A stretch of DNA of 32,761 bases from Nitrosotalea sp. (lineage in GTDB: Archaea; Halobacteriota; Syntropharchaeia; Alkanophagales; Methanospirareceae), in NCBI GenBank assembly GCA_020725315.1, contig DYFG01000002.1, positions 1-32,761 of the forward strand. Reading direction: 5' to 3'. A program made the position numbers and the translations under genes. The notes beneath the pieces are model-generated. The model saw nothing but the letters and a program-made list of their open reading frames with translations. It did not search any database and had not been told where the DNA came from. How positions within the stretch are numbered: the first letter of the stretch is position 1; every line of letters starts with the position of its first letter. Of the stretch, positions 3,794 through 31,219 are shown piece after piece.

Positions 3794-4489
3794 GTGAGGA
3801 TAAGGATGAGTGAACGGGAACGCATGAAAGTCGTCATTTCGTTGGGCGGCATATTCTTCTCGGACGTTGAGAAGATAAAGAAAATTGCTGCGGTATTCGA
3901 TGAACTTGCGCAATTGAACAATCTCTGCGTGGTGACCGGCGGTGGCGAAGGGGCTCGTGAGTATATAAAACTCGCACGCGAGCTGGGTGCGAACGAAGTA
4001 TTCTGTGATTATATAGGAATTGCTCTGACGCGAATCAATGCGAAATTGCTCATTTCCGCGTTAAAAAATGTATATCCAGAACCTTTTTTGGATTACAAAG
4101 AAGCTGCACTAGCTAAGGCGAACGATAGTGGTAAAATAGCGGTAATGGGCGGCGTAAGCCCTGGGTATACCACGGACGCGGTCGCTGCGATCCTTGCCGA
4201 ATACCTGGATGCTGATCTCCTCGTGAACGTCACCTCGGTCGATGGGATTTATGGCGCTGACCCGCGCAAATATCCAAATGCGAGGAAATACGACAAACTC
4301 TCACCAAAGGAACTCGTCGCACTCACCATGAAGGAGGAGCTCAAGGCAGGGTCGAGAATTGTTATCGACCCGGTTGCCGCGAAGATAATAGAACGGAGCG
4401 GGATAAAGACGATTGTTATTGACGGAAGCAATCCTCGTAATATTGTCGATGCCGTTCATGGGAAGCATCAGGGCACTGAGATATTGTGA
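3794..4489 (+). CDS. pyrH: archaeal-type UMP kinase (uridylate kinase)
   Basis: Amino acid kinase fold: MKVVISLGG, VVTGGGEGAREYI, GGVSPGYTTDAVAAILAEYLDADLLVNVTSVDGIYGADP. Start may be the internal MKVVIS. Confidence 0.85.
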   Translation: MRIRMSERERMKVVISLGGIFFSDVEKIKKIAAVFDELAQLNNLCVVTGGGEGAREYIKLARELGANEVFCDYIGIALTRINAKLLISALKNVYPEPFLDYKEAALAKANDSGKIAVMGGVSPGYTTDAVAAILAEYLDADLLVNVTSVDGIYGADPRKYPNARKYDKLSPKELVALTMKEELKAGSRIVIDPVAAKIIERSGIKTIVIDGSNPRNIVDAVHGKHQGTEIL

Positions 4490-19208: not shown

Positions 19209-22200
19209 TCAACCAAAAATCCTCTCTACTTTATCTTTGTTTTTCTCATATTTTTCACTTCGTATACATTCTTTTTTAATTTCCTCAGGCGATGGTATTT
19301 TCATATTCAACCCTCTAAAAGTTTCTTCAAATTCGTTTAAAAGCAATATTAGTTCTTCTTTAGAATTAATATTGCATTCAAAAATAACTTTCTTAAACCA
19401 AGAAATGATAGACCTATTAATCTTAGCGATAAATTCTTCTTTATTATCTACTTCGGATAGGGCTGTTTTAAATATAGAAGCGGTGTTCGCAAATATTGAT
19501 TTTTTTAGAGTTTTTAAGCCTATATAAAGGCTCGCATATATTTTATTGTGCCATGCAGAAGAGTACTTTCGATCAAAATCCAAAGCTTTATCACAACTCT
19601 CCTTAGCTCCTTCACATTCTCCCATTTCATTAAGAACATACCCTTTGTTATCCCATATCGAAGCAACGTATCTCGGATTAGATTTATCAAGACCAGACTC
19701 TAAAGCCAAATCCCAAGCTTTATCTAAACACTCTAAACTCTTTTTATACTCTCCTATTTTACCAAGAGCTTGACCTTTGTTATTCCAAGGTTTAACAAAT
19801 TTTGGATTGATCTTTATAGATTGATCAAAACATTCTATTGCCTCAGGGTATCTCTGTAGCATGATAAGCGAATATCCCTTATTGTCCCATGTAACTTCGT
19901 TATCGGGTTCTAATTCTAAAGCCCTATCATAGCATTTTACCGCTTTTTCTTCGTTCTCCTTCCCTCCTAAGCTATGAAGTGCGTACCCTTTGTTATACCA
20001 CGCAGGAGCATAATCTGAATATAATTCTATACTTTTATCATACCATCCTATTGCCTCCTTTATTGCTTCCTGGCTTTTCGCTAATTTAAAGAGATATAAG
20101 CCTTTATTGTGACATGCAAAAGCATTTTCTAGATTTAATTTTAAAGCTTCGTCGGCGCATTCTAATGCCTTATCATATTTCCCTAAATTACCCAAACTCT
20201 GTCCTTTGTTAATCCACACAAAAATGTTTTTCGGCTCTAACTTCAAAATTTTATCAGCATATTCTACCGCCTTCTTATATAAAGTCTTATCATATTTTCC
20301 TAACTTTGTAAAAGCATATTCTTTATCGTATAACGTATCTAATCTCTCAGGTTTTGATTCGATGGATAGTAAATCAACCAACGATGCATCTAAAATGTCA
20401 TTTAATGACAGCGTTGATATCTTTCTTTCCCCTGCCAATATCAATTCAATTCGCTTTTTAAGTAACTCAACTCTTGTTTGCGAGTCCGTTAGATTATTAT
20501 TTCTTGACATTTCTAAAGCCTTCTCACATTCTTCTAATGCATCTTTTAGAAATTCTGTTTTTTTCTCTTCAGGAATAGCGAGCAATCTTAAGTCTGTTAA
20601 GCTATTTGCTGTTGCTATTAGGGAGTCAACAACTTTCTGTGGATCACTCTCTCTATATACTTCTATGCATAAGTTAGCTCCTTCTTTGAACCAATTTGCA
20701 GCTGATATAGCATCTTCTCTTTCTTCATGTATCTTTCCAATTCCAATTTTTGAGAGATGGCTATATTTTCTTTTATTTTTTTCTTCTTCTATCTTTAAAT
20801 TTTTCTCAAAAGCCTCATGTGCTTTGTCAAGCCTTCCATCATAAAAATACTCCCATCCCAAATTATACCAAGAATCCAAATTATCTCGATTGAAAAATAC
20901 TGAGAACTCAAAACATATTACTGCTATCCTGTGTGGTATTTGTCCAATAAAATCATCAGCGATAGTTTTAGCTGCCTTGCCCCACCTTCCAGACAATATC
21001 CATCTATTTTCTTTCTCCTTCTTCATATCACCAGTTAGTAAGTGATAAGTAAAACCTCTAGTATTGATCGCTGCAGAAAAAATTCTATGAAAAACCTCTA
21101 AAATTTCTTTCTTACCTTTTAGTTTTTCTGCACTATCTTCATGATATTTTGCTGTACACTCTTTCTTCTCTTTCATTTCGTCAAAGGAAATATCAGTTAA
21201 TTCTTTCAAAGCTTGCTCTGCTATTCTATTGTTATCAATATCATAGGATTGATAGAGAGCGCTAATTTTTAAATTGTTGAGATCATTAGCATCCCAGCCA
21301 ATCAATCTTGGATCAATGTTGTCCAGCAATTCTTTAATTTTATACCACTTTTTCGATAGCTTTTCTCTTCCTTCTCCTTTAATGGCAGAATCCGTTATTT
21401 CAAAAATATGTTCTAATATTGGTATAACGAAACTTTTACTAACAAACCATTTGTTATATTCAAATAGCCATTTTCTATCATCTTCTACTTCAGACCTCCC
21501 AAGAGATGATCTTTTTTCTATTGCTTTCTCCAAATCGCTTATGGCTTCTTCTAGCCGACCAAGTCGTGCATTTGCACGTGCTCTTTTACTTAAAATTCCG
21601 CCAATTTCGTAGTTGTACAAATCTCTGCTTTCTTGTATTAGTTGTTGTGGTTGTAACTTTTCACTTATTTCTATTACTCTTCCGTACGCCTTTATTGCGT
21701 TATCAAAAACTTTTATAGCTTTCCGATACTTTTCTTGCTCTAACAAAATTTTTCCTTCCTTTTCTAAAGTGTTAGCCAAATCGATCCAGTTTCTATATTC
21801 ACCAGCATAACATTCGATTGCTTTTATTGCTGCTTTCTCTTGTAGTTTAATATATCCAAGTTCAATATCGACTGGTAATGCAGGTTTTTTGCAATAATCT
21901 TCCACTTTGTCTATCAAACTTCCATAACCTCTGGAAGTGTTCTGTATATTTGCCGATTCTATATACCAATTCAATGCTTCATCATCTTCATTCTTTTTCT
22001 TGTGGAAATCTCCAAGCATCCAGCAAGACCAATAATCTTTGCGATCTAAGTTTATTGTCTCTTTATAGAACTCAATGACTGAATCACAATCTTCAGCAGA
22101 TACTTCATTAAAAGCTCTTTTCCATAAAAGCGAAAAAGTTTTTAGAAGGAATTGCGAAGGTATCCCAAAATCTAAAATTTCAGGGCGTGATTTAAGAGTA

Positions 22201-24155
22201 CTTGTTAAAAAGTCTGTTTCCAATCTTAATATTTTTAATTTTGTTTGAATCTTTAGTCCCTTCGCCTCTATACCCCATGTTTTTGCCATATCTCCTACAA
22301 TGTGCCAAGTGTCTATCTCTTTATGTGAGAGCGAGCCATTCTTCAAGTCTTCCTGAAGTTTAAAAATAAAGCGAACAATCCAGTTAGATAATCTCCCGGT
22401 ATCTACAATTTCCACAAAATCACTGATTAACTGATTGAGTTCTTCAGGACGTTTTTGACTTTTTTTATCTAATAAATATTCTTCTATGGCTTCTTTCCAA
22501 TCTGCTCTTAAACGAAATTCGTCTACATTTTCGAACTTGGTGGATATGCAGTAAAATTTCAATAGATTTTCGACTCTCGTAAAAATTTCGTCAGGCAATA
22601 AATTTTTTGGTTTATTTTCTAATAAGTTTTTATCTAATTCATTAATACCCCACGCTACGAATTTATTAATAAACTCTTTAGTTATAGAATAATTTTGATG
22701 GGTTAAGAGTAAAAATAATGCGGGGAGAACTTTATCACCTGCTATATAATAATCCCGTTTAATGGTATTCCAAATAACCTCAGTTGTGCCAGGACCGTTT
22801 GGATATTCTTCAAGGATCTTTTTTGAGAATGCTTCCTCACGATGAGCTATGTCTTCAATTATAAATGCCATGTAACCAACATTCCCCTTGCTTTTCTCAA
22901 CTGTAATTTTTACACATTCATTAAATTCTGCACTATCGAAAGAAAAATCGCATTTGATTTTATAATAATCAAGGTATCTCATAAGAGTAGACCTTACAAG
23001 CTCTACCTTCTCAGAAGAAGATTCGGGTTTTAATAATGGCCACTCTCCTATGTACCAACTAATCCATTTATCTACCTTCCATTTCTCTTGATCGCTAAAT
23101 TCTTTTTTAAAAGTTTGACAGTGATCGTCTCGTAGAGTAGCAATTAATCTATAACCATTCTTAAATACACTCTCAAATAGTATCATACATTTCTCTATGT
23201 AGTTCTTATCACTCTCCGCTCGACGTAAACCATCTATTACCAATAAGATCTTATCTGGTCCATATTCTCTAAGTTTCAATTTACTATCAATTTGGTCCAG
23301 AACTTCTTTAAATTCCTCTGCTGTTAGAGAAGGATTTATGAAAAAAATTGTTTTCCAATCGCTGGTCTTCCTTTTAAAACATTCATCTATAAGAGATAGC
23401 AAAAACGTGGTCTTACCAACTTTTGGTTCGCCAGTGATTAATAATTTTTTATAATGATGTAATTTATCAACTACACTTTTTATATCTTCTTCAACTTTTG
23501 ATCTCTCTCCAAAATAGAACAAATTCTCTTTCTTCTTTTCAAATTCTCCTTCTTCAAATGGATACTCTATAAAGTACCCATTTGTTGTTATCTTATAGAA
23601 TTCGTCAGAAGTAGTAACCTCTTCAAACAAGTTTGATTCCTTAACTAATAGGATTCTCTCAAATTTTTCAACCTTTGGTTGCAAATCCAATACATACCAG
23701 TCTTTTGGAAAACACTCTTCAATTTCTTCAAATTTTTTAAAAGTAAATATGAATCTCGCATTTCTTAGGTGCTGACTATTCTCAATAATTTTGTTAACTA
23801 ACTTACGTATTTCCTCAATGTTGTTATGACAGTTTTCAATGATATAGTATTGTTTCTCGTTTTTATACCTTTCAAGATTTTTTATAATATACTCAAATGC
23901 ACTCCCATACTTAAACTTTTCATCTGCTCTTGCGAACAATATATGTTCTGTTTCTTCTTCAAGAAGAGTACCTATTCCCTTCCATAGCCCTTCCCTTTCC
24001 CTTTCTTCTCCTACAATAATACAATTTTTCCCTTCATCAAAATTCTTTAATACTTTTTTATAAATATCTAGATTAAGGGTAACCTTTTCTTTTATATCAT
24101 TCAGCTCGGTTTTAGAAATGCTACTCCAGTGGCTAAAGACGCCCTTCATTTTCAT
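19209..24155 (-). CDS. giant STAND-like NTPase with two P-loop-type domains and a TPR region
   Basis: 1648 aa; canonical Walker A LLITGEPKVGKTTFLLSL and Walker B KILLVIDGLRRA, preceded by a degenerate P-loop-like segment NCIIVGEEREREGLWKGIG; C-terminal TPR repeats (AWYNKGYALHSLG, TWDNKGYSLIMLQRYPEAIECFDQSIKINP, PWNNKGQALGKIGEYKKSLECLDKA). Confidence 0.85.
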   Translation of the reverse strand: MKMKGVFSHWSSISKTELNDIKEKVTLNLDIYKKVLKNFDEGKNCIIVGEEREREGLWKGIGTLLEEETEHILFARADEKFKYGSAFEYIIKNLERYKNEKQYYIIENCHNNIEEIRKLVNKIIENSQHLRNARFIFTFKKFEEIEECFPKDWYVLDLQPKVEKFERILLVKESNLFEEVTTSDEFYKITTNGYFIEYPFEEGEFEKKKENLFYFGERSKVEEDIKSVVDKLHHYKKLLITGEPKVGKTTFLLSLIDECFKRKTSDWKTIFFINPSLTAEEFKEVLDQIDSKLKLREYGPDKILLVIDGLRRAESDKNYIEKCMILFESVFKNGYRLIATLRDDHCQTFKKEFSDQEKWKVDKWISWYIGEWPLLKPESSSEKVELVRSTLMRYLDYYKIKCDFSFDSAEFNECVKITVEKSKGNVGYMAFIIEDIAHREEAFSKKILEEYPNGPGTTEVIWNTIKRDYYIAGDKVLPALFLLLTHQNYSITKEFINKFVAWGINELDKNLLENKPKNLLPDEIFTRVENLLKFYCISTKFENVDEFRLRADWKEAIEEYLLDKKSQKRPEELNQLISDFVEIVDTGRLSNWIVRFIFKLQEDLKNGSLSHKEIDTWHIVGDMAKTWGIEAKGLKIQTKLKILRLETDFLTSTLKSRPEILDFGIPSQFLLKTFSLLWKRAFNEVSAEDCDSVIEFYKETINLDRKDYWSCWMLGDFHKKKNEDDEALNWYIESANIQNTSRGYGSLIDKVEDYCKKPALPVDIELGYIKLQEKAAIKAIECYAGEYRNWIDLANTLEKEGKILLEQEKYRKAIKVFDNAIKAYGRVIEISEKLQPQQLIQESRDLYNYEIGGILSKRARANARLGRLEEAISDLEKAIEKRSSLGRSEVEDDRKWLFEYNKWFVSKSFVIPILEHIFEITDSAIKGEGREKLSKKWYKIKELLDNIDPRLIGWDANDLNNLKISALYQSYDIDNNRIAEQALKELTDISFDEMKEKKECTAKYHEDSAEKLKGKKEILEVFHRIFSAAINTRGFTYHLLTGDMKKEKENRWILSGRWGKAAKTIADDFIGQIPHRIAVICFEFSVFFNRDNLDSWYNLGWEYFYDGRLDKAHEAFEKNLKIEEEKNKRKYSHLSKIGIGKIHEEREDAISAANWFKEGANLCIEVYRESDPQKVVDSLIATANSLTDLRLLAIPEEKKTEFLKDALEECEKALEMSRNNNLTDSQTRVELLKKRIELILAGERKISTLSLNDILDASLVDLLSIESKPERLDTLYDKEYAFTKLGKYDKTLYKKAVEYADKILKLEPKNIFVWINKGQSLGNLGKYDKALECADEALKLNLENAFACHNKGLYLFKLAKSQEAIKEAIGWYDKSIELYSDYAPAWYNKGYALHSLGGKENEEKAVKCYDRALELEPDNEVTWDNKGYSLIMLQRYPEAIECFDQSIKINPKFVKPWNNKGQALGKIGEYKKSLECLDKAWDLALESGLDKSNPRYVASIWDNKGYVLNEMGECEGAKESCDKALDFDRKYSSAWHNKIYASLYIGLKTLKKSIFANTASIFKTALSEVDNKEEFIAKINRSIISWFKKVIFECNINSKEELILLLNEFEETFRGLNMKIPSPEEIKKECIRSEKYEKNKDKVERIFG

Positions 24156-24175: not shown

Positions 24176-24577
24176 TTAGTTTAATACTATTATTATGCCA
24201 ATGCCAATACTTACCAAACCACCAATAAACAGCGGCCAAAGAATCTTTCGTTGCTCATGAAGTTCTCCATGTAAATTATATTTTCTGGTAGCTTTATCCT
24301 CTCCTATAACCTCCGTATGTAAAAGCTCTAAAATAATGCTTATAACACAAAAACACACCGAAGATAGAAATATTAAAAAAATAGCTAATTTTACAAGTCT
24401 CATGGTAACATTTGCCCCTTCCGGAGCAAAAACCAGACCAGTCAATAAATTTGTCGCTGCACCGATCAAAGCCCCTGAAACTATCGCATAGAAAGAAGGA
24501 GGGAGTGAAAAAAGCCACTCTTCCATTTTGTCTAACTTATCTAACGCATAATGTATTTTGATCATCACTTCGCTCAT
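24176..24577 (-). CDS. small membrane protein, 133 aa, about three TM segments
   Basis: Hydrophobic segments FYAIVSGALIGAATNLLTGLVF, LAIFLIFLSSVCFCVISIILELL, LFIGGLVSIGIGIIIVL; ends 20 nt upstream of the start of the giant NTPase gene, same strand. Confidence 0.7.
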   Translation of the reverse strand: MSEVMIKIHYALDKLDKMEEWLFSLPPSFYAIVSGALIGAATNLLTGLVFAPEGANVTMRLVKLAIFLIFLSSVCFCVISIILELLHTEVIGEDKATRKYNLHGELHEQRKILWPLFIGGLVSIGIGIIIVLN

Positions 24578-27269: not shown

Positions 27270-28037
27270 ATGCAACTTCCTACGAAATACAGCACGGGGT
27301 GTAAGAGCATAGATGAGCTGTTAGGTGGGGGGTTCGAGTCAGGTACGGTGACCCAGCTCTATGGAGAGGCAGGCAGTGGAAAGACCAATATCTGCCTCCA
27401 GGTAGCGGTAGACTGTGCGAGAAACGGGAAGAGTGTAATTTTTATAGACACCGAGGGGTTTTCTCCGGAACGGTTCTTACAGATAGCCAGTTCTGAGCCC
27501 TTACTGAGCCTTTCAGGCTTGCGGGCTCGCGGGGCGGAGCCCCAGAGTGGGAGTGAAGAGGTGGAAAGCATAGCACGGAGAATTATGATCTACGAGCCTC
27601 AGAGTTTCGAGCAGCAAATGTCCTGTATAAAGGAGATAGATGCGGTAATAAAGGATAAGGAGGGTAAAAACAAGGTTTCACTCGTAATCCTCGACTCAGC
27701 CACGCTTTTCTACCGCTTAGAGCTGGACGATGAAAGAAGTATGTATTTGAGGAGAGCGTTGGCAAACCAAATAATGCATCTCCTGGAAGTTGCGCGCAGG
27801 CATGACCTTGCTGTCCTTATAACCAATCAAGTATATACTGATATAGAGAATGGTAAATTACGACCTCCTGGTGGATCTGCTCTCGAGCATCTCTCAAAAG
27901 TAATTGTGCAGCTCGAGAAAGTGGCAGGAGGGCGTGGCAAAAGAAGAGCTATTTTAAGGAAGCACCGGTCTATGCCTGAAGATACGGCATGCGAGTTTTT
28001 TATCACGAGTAAAGGTGTTGAGGATAGCCCGAGATGA
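27270..28037 (+). CDS. radB: DNA repair and recombination protein RadB
   Basis: RecA-fold: QLYGEAGSGKTNICLQVA, VIFIDTEGFSPERFLQIA, LVILDSATLFYRLEL, AVLITNQVYTDIENGKLRPPGGSALEHLSKVIVQLEK. Contains an atypical insert of about 20 aa. Confidence 0.92.
   Translation: MQLPTKYSTGCKSIDELLGGGFESGTVTQLYGEAGSGKTNICLQVAVDCARNGKSVIFIDTEGFSPERFLQIASSEPLLSLSGLRARGAEPQSGSEEVESIARRIMIYEPQSFEQQMSCIKEIDAVIKDKEGKNKVSLVILDSATLFYRLELDDERSMYLRRALANQIMHLLEVARRHDLAVLITNQVYTDIENGKLRPPGGSALEHLSKVIVQLEKVAGGRGKRRAILRKHRSMPEDTACEFFITSKGVEDSPR
27493..27553 (+). repeat. GC-rich hairpin element inserted in frame in radB
   Basis: GAGCCC(27495-27500)...GGGCTC(27523-27528) enclosing AGCCT-TTC-AGGCT, then GGGGC-GGA-GCCCC (27531-27543); encodes SEPLLSLSGLRARGAEPQSGS between QIAS and EEVESIARR. 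Confidence 0.7.
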
Positions 28038-29854: not shown

Positions 29855-31219
29855 CTACAACTTCAACCGCTCCGGAATCACCTGATTTCGTATCAAATCC
29901 TCGACACTTTCTTCTGACCTTATCAAGTCCACCGAACCGTCGCAGACTAATACCTCCGCACATCTCGGTCTCCCGTTGTATTGCGAACCCATCGAGAAAC
30001 CGTACGCACCGACATCTAATATCGCAACGAGATCTCCTCTCTTCACCTCTGGCAGCATTCTATCCCGTGCGATTATATCACCTGATTCACAGATCGGTCC
30101 CACAACGGTATATAACTCAGAAGCGGGCTCGTTAAGCTTGTTCGCTACCACGACCTCATGATACGCGTCATACATCACGGGTCTTATCAGCAGGTTAAAT
30201 CCCGCATCGATTGCCACAAAATTTCTAGAAGCTGTGGGGCTCTGCCCCGTCACGGGCTCCGCCCGTGCCCCCGCATCATGGGCTCCGCCCATGTCCCCGC
30301 AAGCCCTGTAAGGGCTTAGCTTAACTGCATTTACCTTACTCACCAGAATTGAAGCCGGGCCAACGAGCGACCTGCCAGGCTCCAGGATCAACTTCGGAGT
30401 TATGCCCAGCGAGTTCAGCTTTGCTTCAAAAACGGGTAGTATCGCTCCGGCAAGGTCTTTTGGGGTTGGAGCTCTCTCCTTCTCTTTCTGGTAGGATATG
30501 CCAAGCCCTCCACCAAGATCCACAAACTCGAGTTCTATACCTCGTCCATGTAATCCTTCGACGAGATTCATCATCTTCTCGGTCGCTTCTCTATAAACGC
30601 TAACGTCCAGTATCTGAGAACCGATATGACAATGTATGCCTTTAATAGCAATGTTCGGCAGCTTTGCTGCTTCCTCATAAGTGGATAGTATCTCATAATA
30701 AGGAATACCGAATTTTGATTCACGGAGACCGGTGGCGATCTTTGGATTTACCTGTGGCGATACGTCTGGGTTCACTCGTATGGCGATTTCCGCTTCTTTG
30801 CCCATCTCACCTGCTACTGCTGATAAGGTTTCCAATTCGTCCAGCGAATCCACAGATACCCTTACCTGCGATTCGACCGCTGTTCTTAGCTCCTCTTCAC
30901 TCTTTGAATTCCCGTTGAACAAGATCTTCTCCAGGGGTATGCCTGCTAACTTCACCAGATGGAGTTCGCCTCCCGAAAACACATCAGCACCCGCACCTTC
31001 ACTTGCTAAAATTCGTAGTATCGCAAGATTACCATTCGCTTTGACTGCAAAATAGATATCATTCTCCACCGCTTTAAATGCGGTTTTGTACTTCCTGAAA
31101 TTGGCTCTTATTATACTCTCATCGGTGATGTACAGCGGTGTTCCGTACCGCTCTGCCAATTCTACGACATCCACACCACCGAAGACCAAATGGGCGCTTT
31201 GTTCTTCTCCTTGTGACAT
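29855..31219 (-). CDS. lysA: diaminopimelate decarboxylase
   Basis: 454 aa; YFAVKANGN, GIHCHIGSQI, ILEPGRSLVGPA, CESGD, IRPVMYDAYHEV. Contains an atypical insert of about 28 aa. Confidence 0.93.
   Translation of the reverse strand: MSQGEEQSAHLVFGGVDVVELAERYGTPLYITDESIIRANFRKYKTAFKAVENDIYFAVKANGNLAILRILASEGAGADVFSGGELHLVKLAGIPLEKILFNGNSKSEEELRTAVESQVRVSVDSLDELETLSAVAGEMGKEAEIAIRVNPDVSPQVNPKIATGLRESKFGIPYYEILSTYEEAAKLPNIAIKGIHCHIGSQILDVSVYREATEKMMNLVEGLHGRGIELEFVDLGGGLGISYQKEKERAPTPKDLAGAILPVFEAKLNSLGITPKLILEPGRSLVGPASILVSKVNAVKLSPYRACGDMGGAHDAGARAEPVTGQSPTASRNFVAIDAGFNLLIRPVMYDAYHEVVVANKLNEPASELYTVVGPICESGDIIARDRMLPEVKRGDLVAILDVGAYGFSMGSQYNGRPRCAEVLVCDGSVDLIRSEESVEDLIRNQVIPERLKL
30236..30317 (-). 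repeat. four tandem GC-rich hairpins inserted in frame in lysA
   Basis: Plus strand: GGGGC-TCT-GCCCC (30236-30248), CACGGGC-TCC-GCCCGTG (30251-30267), CATGGGC-TCC-GCCCATG (30277-30293), AAGCCCT-GTA-AGGGCTT (30301-30317). Encodes SPYRACGDMGGAHDAGARAEPVTGQSPTAS between VNAVKL and RNFVAIDAG. Confidence 0.85.

Follow-up and report, generated by a model that had tools for sequence, protein, structure and literature searches.

The radB and lysA genes of the window (the whole stretch of archaeal DNA that was analysed, 32,761 nucleotides) each carry an insert belonging to a dispersed family of short hairpin elements, the members of which recur far beyond chance. Copies of the element move to new sites and insert into one another, and the 44-nt type is exchanged for 2 nt of its target. 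It is very likely that the family represents a non-autonomous mobile coding element with paired hairpins. An initial annotation, made from the sequence alone, had placed related hairpin blocks in radB (27493-27553) and in lysA, and had proposed a mobile coding mini-element that spreads at the level of DNA or RNA. The blocks lie where it put them, with the bounds of the radB insert at 27494-27546, and its core claim is supported. Its statements that both hosts are conserved housekeeping ORFs with the frame kept (full-length RadB and LysA according to curated models), and that the two genes translate the shared blocks partly in different frames (a KPL-type reading in radB, a SPYRACG-type one in lysA), also held.

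The basic unit, as seen in simple copies, is 43-46 nt long and comprises TAA, a first hairpin (AAGCCCT-TAC-AGGGCTT), a G-rich spacer (GCGGGGTC), a second hairpin (GTGGGGC-RGA-GCCCCAC, with a GGA or AGA loop) and a terminal A. The commonest layout, with these parts in this order, totals 44 nt. In a 46-nt type the sequences are AAACCC...GGGTTT and AACGGGGC...GCCCCGTT, and in a 43-nt type the second hairpin is shorter; the overall size range quoted for the two-hairpin family is 42-46 nt. The ends of the unit (T-A-A...C-A-C-A) are conserved and the flanking DNA has no consensus; the two ends, TAAGCC and CCACA, are not inverted repeats of each other. Compensating changes preserve the pairing in both hairpins, with a covariation of 0.21 in the stems versus 0.09 in shuffles, none of 500 of which scored as high, and this result was obtained in two alignments, a curated set and a set of 89 matches from two relatives. 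When folded as single strands, two consensus units gave z values of -3.6 and -4.1 versus shuffles and the lysA copy gave -5.1, while the radB copy folded alone is unexceptional (z -1.5). Nesting, whereby copies are found within other copies, is seen in both radB and lysA. The subfamily in one relative, G002, is homogeneous and has the loop GAA. At three loci (L049, L084 and L097) the second hairpin carries an inverted loop, with TCT or TCC in place of AGA or GGA, which is what strand-switching at hairpins would produce, and at four others (L035, L051, L066 and L072) the copies lie within another interspersed repeat, with flanks like AAATCCTAAGCACCAAATTA. A search of the window and of element-rich loci with the Rfam 15 covariance models gave no relevant match.

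Genome-wide, the copy search that the initial annotation had put forward as a check found more than 120 copies. There are at least 121 covariance-model matches in the 1.88-Mb genome to which the window belongs, and this is a lower bound because some candidates were left unscored by the model. The exact motif GGGCGGAGCCC occurs 49 times in this genome and the leading block AGCCCTTACAGGGCTTGCGG, with up to 3 mismatches, 104 times, with no occurrence of either reversed control; within the window itself, GGGCGGAGCCC with at most one mismatch was found 4 times versus 0.18 expected. Among 51 genomes of the same family, all of which were compared as MAGs rather than isolates, 40 have matches, with 0 to 135 copies each, and the named carriers are almost all assemblies of the methane-oxidising ANME-1 archaea (Methanophagales). 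The assemblies behind G002 and G003 may recur among the named loci, and identical copies were collapsed by their flanks. Across the phylum (298 genomes) only two genomes outside the family were positive, with one copy apiece. One of these two, a closed genome from another family (G055), has a single exact copy (L375, reverse strand, at about position 2904), in frame within what we take, from our reading of the sequence, to be a dTDP-4-dehydrorhamnose-reductase-like gene, and this lone copy may point to horizontal transfer of the gene or of the element. No exact or similar copy was found in phages, plasmids or IMG/VR viral contigs that might identify a viral carrier. An assembly or adapter artefact can be excluded by the many independent assemblies, by orthologous sites with graded divergence and by the copy in a closed genome.

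In radB (27270-28037, forward strand; 255 aa; TIGR02237, E 7e-73), which has orthologs with and without the insert, the element is carried in frame. Comparison with relatives shows that the whole insert (27494-27546) is a nested, degenerate copy, which amends the single hairpin element described in the initial annotation. It consists of an 11-nt remnant of an outer unit, TGAGCCCTTAC (27494-27504; TAAGCCCTTAC in G003), followed by an inner unit (27505-27546; 47.3 bits with the family covariance model, E 4.2e-10). The hairpins of the inner unit, recognised by sequence and folding, are AGCCT-TTC-AGGCT (27507-27519) and GGGGC-GGA-GCCCC (27531-27543), all of these features lying on the forward strand. 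The site is empty in two relatives (G042 and G023); compared with these, G038 has a 42-nt insert (versus G042) and G024 a nested one (versus G023). The nested copy in G003 is longer than that of the window, and in G002 only a 10-nt in-frame scar, TAAGCCCTTA, is left. The alternative recognised by the initial annotation, that hairpin-free radB homologs would have an equally long, unrelated sequence here, is not borne out, as those homologs are shorter at the site. AlphaFold2 modelling of RadB (mean pLDDT 67) places the insert in a disordered loop that separates helices 66-74 and 94-103, with residues 79-93 below a pLDDT of 50; this predicted loop is an example of a position where a protein tolerates such a linker. 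Insertions in radB at the identical nucleotide were observed across three genera (L079, L081 and L088), each with genus-typical flanks.

The lysA gene (29855-31219, reverse strand; 454 aa; TIGR01048, E 4e-154) likewise holds a nested copy in frame. The covariance model and comparison with relatives define an insert at 30233-30318 that contributes a net 84 nt and is composed of a leading hairpin and three GGGC-RGA-GCCC hairpins. By folding these are AAGCCCT-TAC-AGGGCTT (30301-30317), CATGGGC-GGA-GCCCATG (30277-30293), CACGGGC-GGA-GCCCGTG (30251-30267) and GGGGC-AGA-GCCCC (30236-30248), all on the reverse strand. The best covariance-model match is the unit at 30318-30276 (68.2 bits, E 4e-15), accompanied by another at 30275-30250. 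Approximately 40 relatives align only up to residue 301 and again from residue 330. The site is empty in G001, G020 and G032, a simple single 42-nt unit is present in G002, and a unit lies at the same nucleotide in a representative of another genus (G050). In many genera the empty site holds a genuine, varying codon (Gln, His or Arg). The loci L346 and L347 show lysA insertions at the identical nucleotide in two different genera, again with genus-typical flanks. It is possible that such same-nucleotide insertions, in two genera for lysA and three for radB, reflect a target preference or recombination between species rather than separate jumps. Elsewhere in the window, a 1648-aa ORF (19209-24155, reverse strand) has the appearance of an NTPase followed by TPR-like repeats; it adjoins a small membrane-like protein (24176-24577) and is possibly a defence-type gene.

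Comparison of occupied with empty sites, another check named by the initial annotation, found both among relatives, with radB and lysA included. The element is mobile, because relatives show empty sites, and species differ in its presence or absence at dozens of sites. Of 31 clean cases, 29 have the 44-nt copy in place of exactly 2 nt of the empty relative, giving a net gain of 42 nt without target duplication. This count covers all fetched loci, some of which are orthologous to one another, leaving approximately 25 independent sites when counted by eye. The replaced dinucleotides vary (TA, TC, AA, CC, GG, CG and others) and the exchange of two bases for 44 is seen both inside and outside ORFs. 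Since the unit ends are conserved and the flanks are not, the loss of two bases belongs to the reaction itself rather than to the choice of boundaries. For example, the UMP kinase gene of the window has an empty site, TA (4126-4127, forward strand), exactly where L178 has a 44-nt copy (at 1165): TAAGCCC...CCCCACA is present in L178 instead of TA, the flanks are 85-86% identical on either side, and the occupied protein reads ...AHD-KPLQGLRGRGAEPHS-GKIAV (L311). Deletion scars also exist, as in radB of G002 and at the L026 site.

Genes are disfavoured as targets, because only 30 of the 73 copies assessed in the window's own genome (~41%) lie within ORFs, versus 63% of random positions. ORFs were called mechanically by a stop-to-stop criterion for this comparison and the random positions were drawn in the relative G002. 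The enrichment inside ORFs suggested by the initial annotation therefore failed, and its description of the family as intragenic held only in part, as copies occur outside genes too; its other two expectations, lengths in multiples of three within ORFs and a preferred orientation, were both met. Within ORFs, 18 of 19 length differences between species are multiples of three; outside them, 18 of 43 are. Copies within ORFs of the window's own genome favour the sense orientation (24 sense, 6 antisense), as do those over all loci (74:18, p 3e-9, orthologs not collapsed). The KPL frame, which encodes the peptide KPLQGLRGRGAEPH, is used by 51 of the 74 sense copies, and the second commonest frame reads SPYRACGVVGRSPT. 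Just 4 copies use the frame containing TAA, and both of those that were read out have lost the T. Because the typical copy lengthens its target by 42 nt and two of its three sense frames are free of stops, insertion into a gene often gives rise to a 14-residue linker, KPLQGLRGRGAEPH. For the 44-nt type, neutrality with respect to frame is built in, because the gain of 42 nt is found outside genes as well. The 46-nt type usually adds a net 44 nt, but its three cases within ORFs that have an empty relative add 45, 45 and 42 nt; a selective filter is shown by its occurrence in genes only as +45 or +42, albeit in three cases. Hosts include radB, lysA, aroC, pyrG, truA, argC and RLI/ABCE1, and LeuA in antisense. 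These ORFs belong at full length to equivalog families, and the family match crosses the insert or, for LeuA, lies on both sides of it. A second family of in-frame inserts, which are AT-rich, was observed in IS200-type TnpA genes, at about position 1650 of L110 and L112. In L110 it reads HLFIK-PFKKAFTEKCFAD-PPKYS, L112 has two such inserts and L108 has none; the DNA resembles AAAGCGTTTACGGAAAAATGCTTCGC, which is itself a hairpin.

In the mechanism that we propose, a non-autonomous element would be moved by a trans-acting enzyme that recognises the hairpins when folded in single-stranded DNA or RNA. This is an inference, and taken alone the step of single-strand recognition could as readily prove wrong as right. 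The resulting linker would survive where the host protein tolerates 14 extra residues, and purifying selection is inferred to remove other insertions, which may account for the scarcity of copies in genes, for the frame rule and for some of the sense bias. As a guess, the loss of two bases would suit a staggered cut from which the overhang is lost, or target-primed insertion. Across the 51 genomes copy number showed no correlation with the number of Y1_Tnp (rho 0.07, p 0.60), RVT_1 (rho 0.14, p 0.31) or Resolvase (rho -0.10) matches, and G002, which is 93% complete and has 109 copies, has no match to any of the three. No autonomous or split version, with hairpins 1 and 2 up to 3.5 kb apart, was found in the DNA stretches examined. 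The failure of the searches made to find either a mobilising gene or a longer autonomous copy counts against the mobile-element view. It is also possible that strand-switching during replication, rather than recognition by an enzyme, keeps the stems paired, as the loop inversions (AGA to TCT at L049) show that such events take place.

The alternative that survives best, although we consider it unlikely, is that the element is a minimal IS200/IS605-type derivative, similar to PATE or REP elements, that is moved as single-stranded DNA by a Y1 (HUH) TnpA acting on both hairpins. In favour of this, two hairpins without target duplication match the description of PATEs (PMC3119063), nesting within hairpins resembles the entry of small mobile repeats into PATE palindromes (PMC3119063), and ANME-1 has Y1_Tnp genes, with an element lying within a few hundred nucleotides of tnpA at 3 of the 5 Y1_Tnp loci of G003 (L112, L114 and L115). 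However, copy number is independent of Y1_Tnp number in the 51 genomes and the 109 copies of G002 exist without a Y1_Tnp match. Moreover, the TnpA loci of the window's own genome lack hairpins of the family and no split copy was seen, TnpB-only elements being outside the scope of this comparison; empty sites retain no conserved 5' target oligonucleotide, and it is 2 nt of variable sequence that are lost. Insertion of an RNA copy by reverse transcription at a staggered nick is likewise improbable. Such a route would explain both the loss of 2 bp of target and the conserved RNA-like hairpins, and the units are indeed structured, with compensatory changes; target loss is known for R2-type target-primed insertion. 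In contrast, no RVT_1 gene was found in G002 despite its 109 copies, no correlation exists over the 51 genomes, and neither tails nor 5' truncations, as are typical of target-primed insertion, were noticed.

We regard it as very unlikely that no transposition takes place, such that hairpins arise or are homogenised by strand-switching, recombination or gene conversion between copies and empty sites represent deletions. Differing versions at orthologous sites across species, the deletion scars in G002 radB and at the L026 site, and the loop inversions at L049 and L084 can be cited in support. The evidence from most sites already contradicts this view: in 29 of 31 cases an ordinary dinucleotide of variable sequence occupies the empty site, the varying lysA codon (Gln, His or Arg) would require precise losses that restore different codons, which is not credible as the main process, and a single copy occurs in a closed genome of another family. 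Selection of the peptide KPLQGLRGRGAEPH as a protein-level module functioning in many enzymes is all but excluded, since, despite the identical peptide in many proteins and the preference for one frame, copies are read in all three sense frames and in antisense, the majority of copies lie outside ORFs and orthologs without the insert are common. Returning to the mobile element moved in trans, a bolder reading is that an undescribed mode of transposition gives up exactly two base pairs of target for a bare double hairpin of 44 nt, spreading a frame-neutral linker through essential archaeal genes, and that the enzyme responsible lies outside the usual hairpin transposases; we consider this reading possible but less likely than not.

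The initial annotation had called the element undescribed. This holds for the ANME-1 family, for which no prior description was found in the open-access literature searched, but the kind of element is already known. Rickettsia palindromic elements are dispersed, non-autonomous palindromic repeats found both between genes and in frame within conserved genes, where they mostly encode a conserved peptide (PMC2229807, PMC10969869). The ANME-1 family resembles them in kind, being multi-copy, dispersed, mobile (as judged by occupied and empty sites) and in frame within conserved genes with a conserved peptide. Whereas the Rickettsia elements are ~105-150 bp long, form one long stem with terminal inverted repeats and belong to alphaproteobacteria, the ANME-1 unit is archaeal, measures 43-46 nt, has two separate hairpins in direct order without a terminal inverted repeat, and also nests and replaces 2 nt of its target. 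We therefore view the two as the same kind of thing but as different families, a judgement with no sequence comparison behind it. Archaeal repeats fused into protein genes were described by Suyama 2005 (cited in PMC2229807, which says only "archaeon"); the repeats are reported to be palindromic, to have coding potential and to come from Methanocaldococcus jannaschii. They are likewise archaeal and located in protein genes, although the lineage differs from ANME-1.

The PATEs and small mobile repeats (SMRs) of Haloquadratum walsbyi lack a transposase, have palindromes near their ends and cause no target duplication, and SMRs enter the palindromes of other elements (PMC3119063). The ANME-1 element is similar to a PATE in having hairpins near both ends and no target duplication, but at the Y1_Tnp loci of the window's own genome it was not found to share its ends with an IS200/IS605-type transposon, and it lacks the conserved targeting oligonucleotide of PATEs; unlike SMRs, which are 80-110 bp long, it has no terminal inverted repeats. 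In-frame coding insertion is not described for PATEs or SMRs in the relevant sections of PMC3119063. REP, BIME and REPIN sequences with their RAYT transposases are also short hairpins of high copy number. REPs, however, are single palindromes that lie mostly outside genes, bear GTAG- or CGTC-type tags and are associated with a RAYT (Y1) gene, whereas the ANME-1 element showed no such tag, has many copies in genes and reaches 109 copies in G002 without Y1_Tnp. Terminal inverted repeats and target site duplication, the features of classical MITEs, are both absent.

The ANME-1 family provides a clear archaeal counterpart of the coding palindromes of Rickettsia, in a group of global importance. 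For annotation, it explains odd insertions of 14-28 residues in ANME-1 proteins and it marks recent divergence between strains. The constant net gain of 42 nt, together with the replacement of two bases, defines a reaction that is open to biochemical search. As the element touches central enzymes, it offers clean material on how selfish DNA enters essential genes without killing its host.
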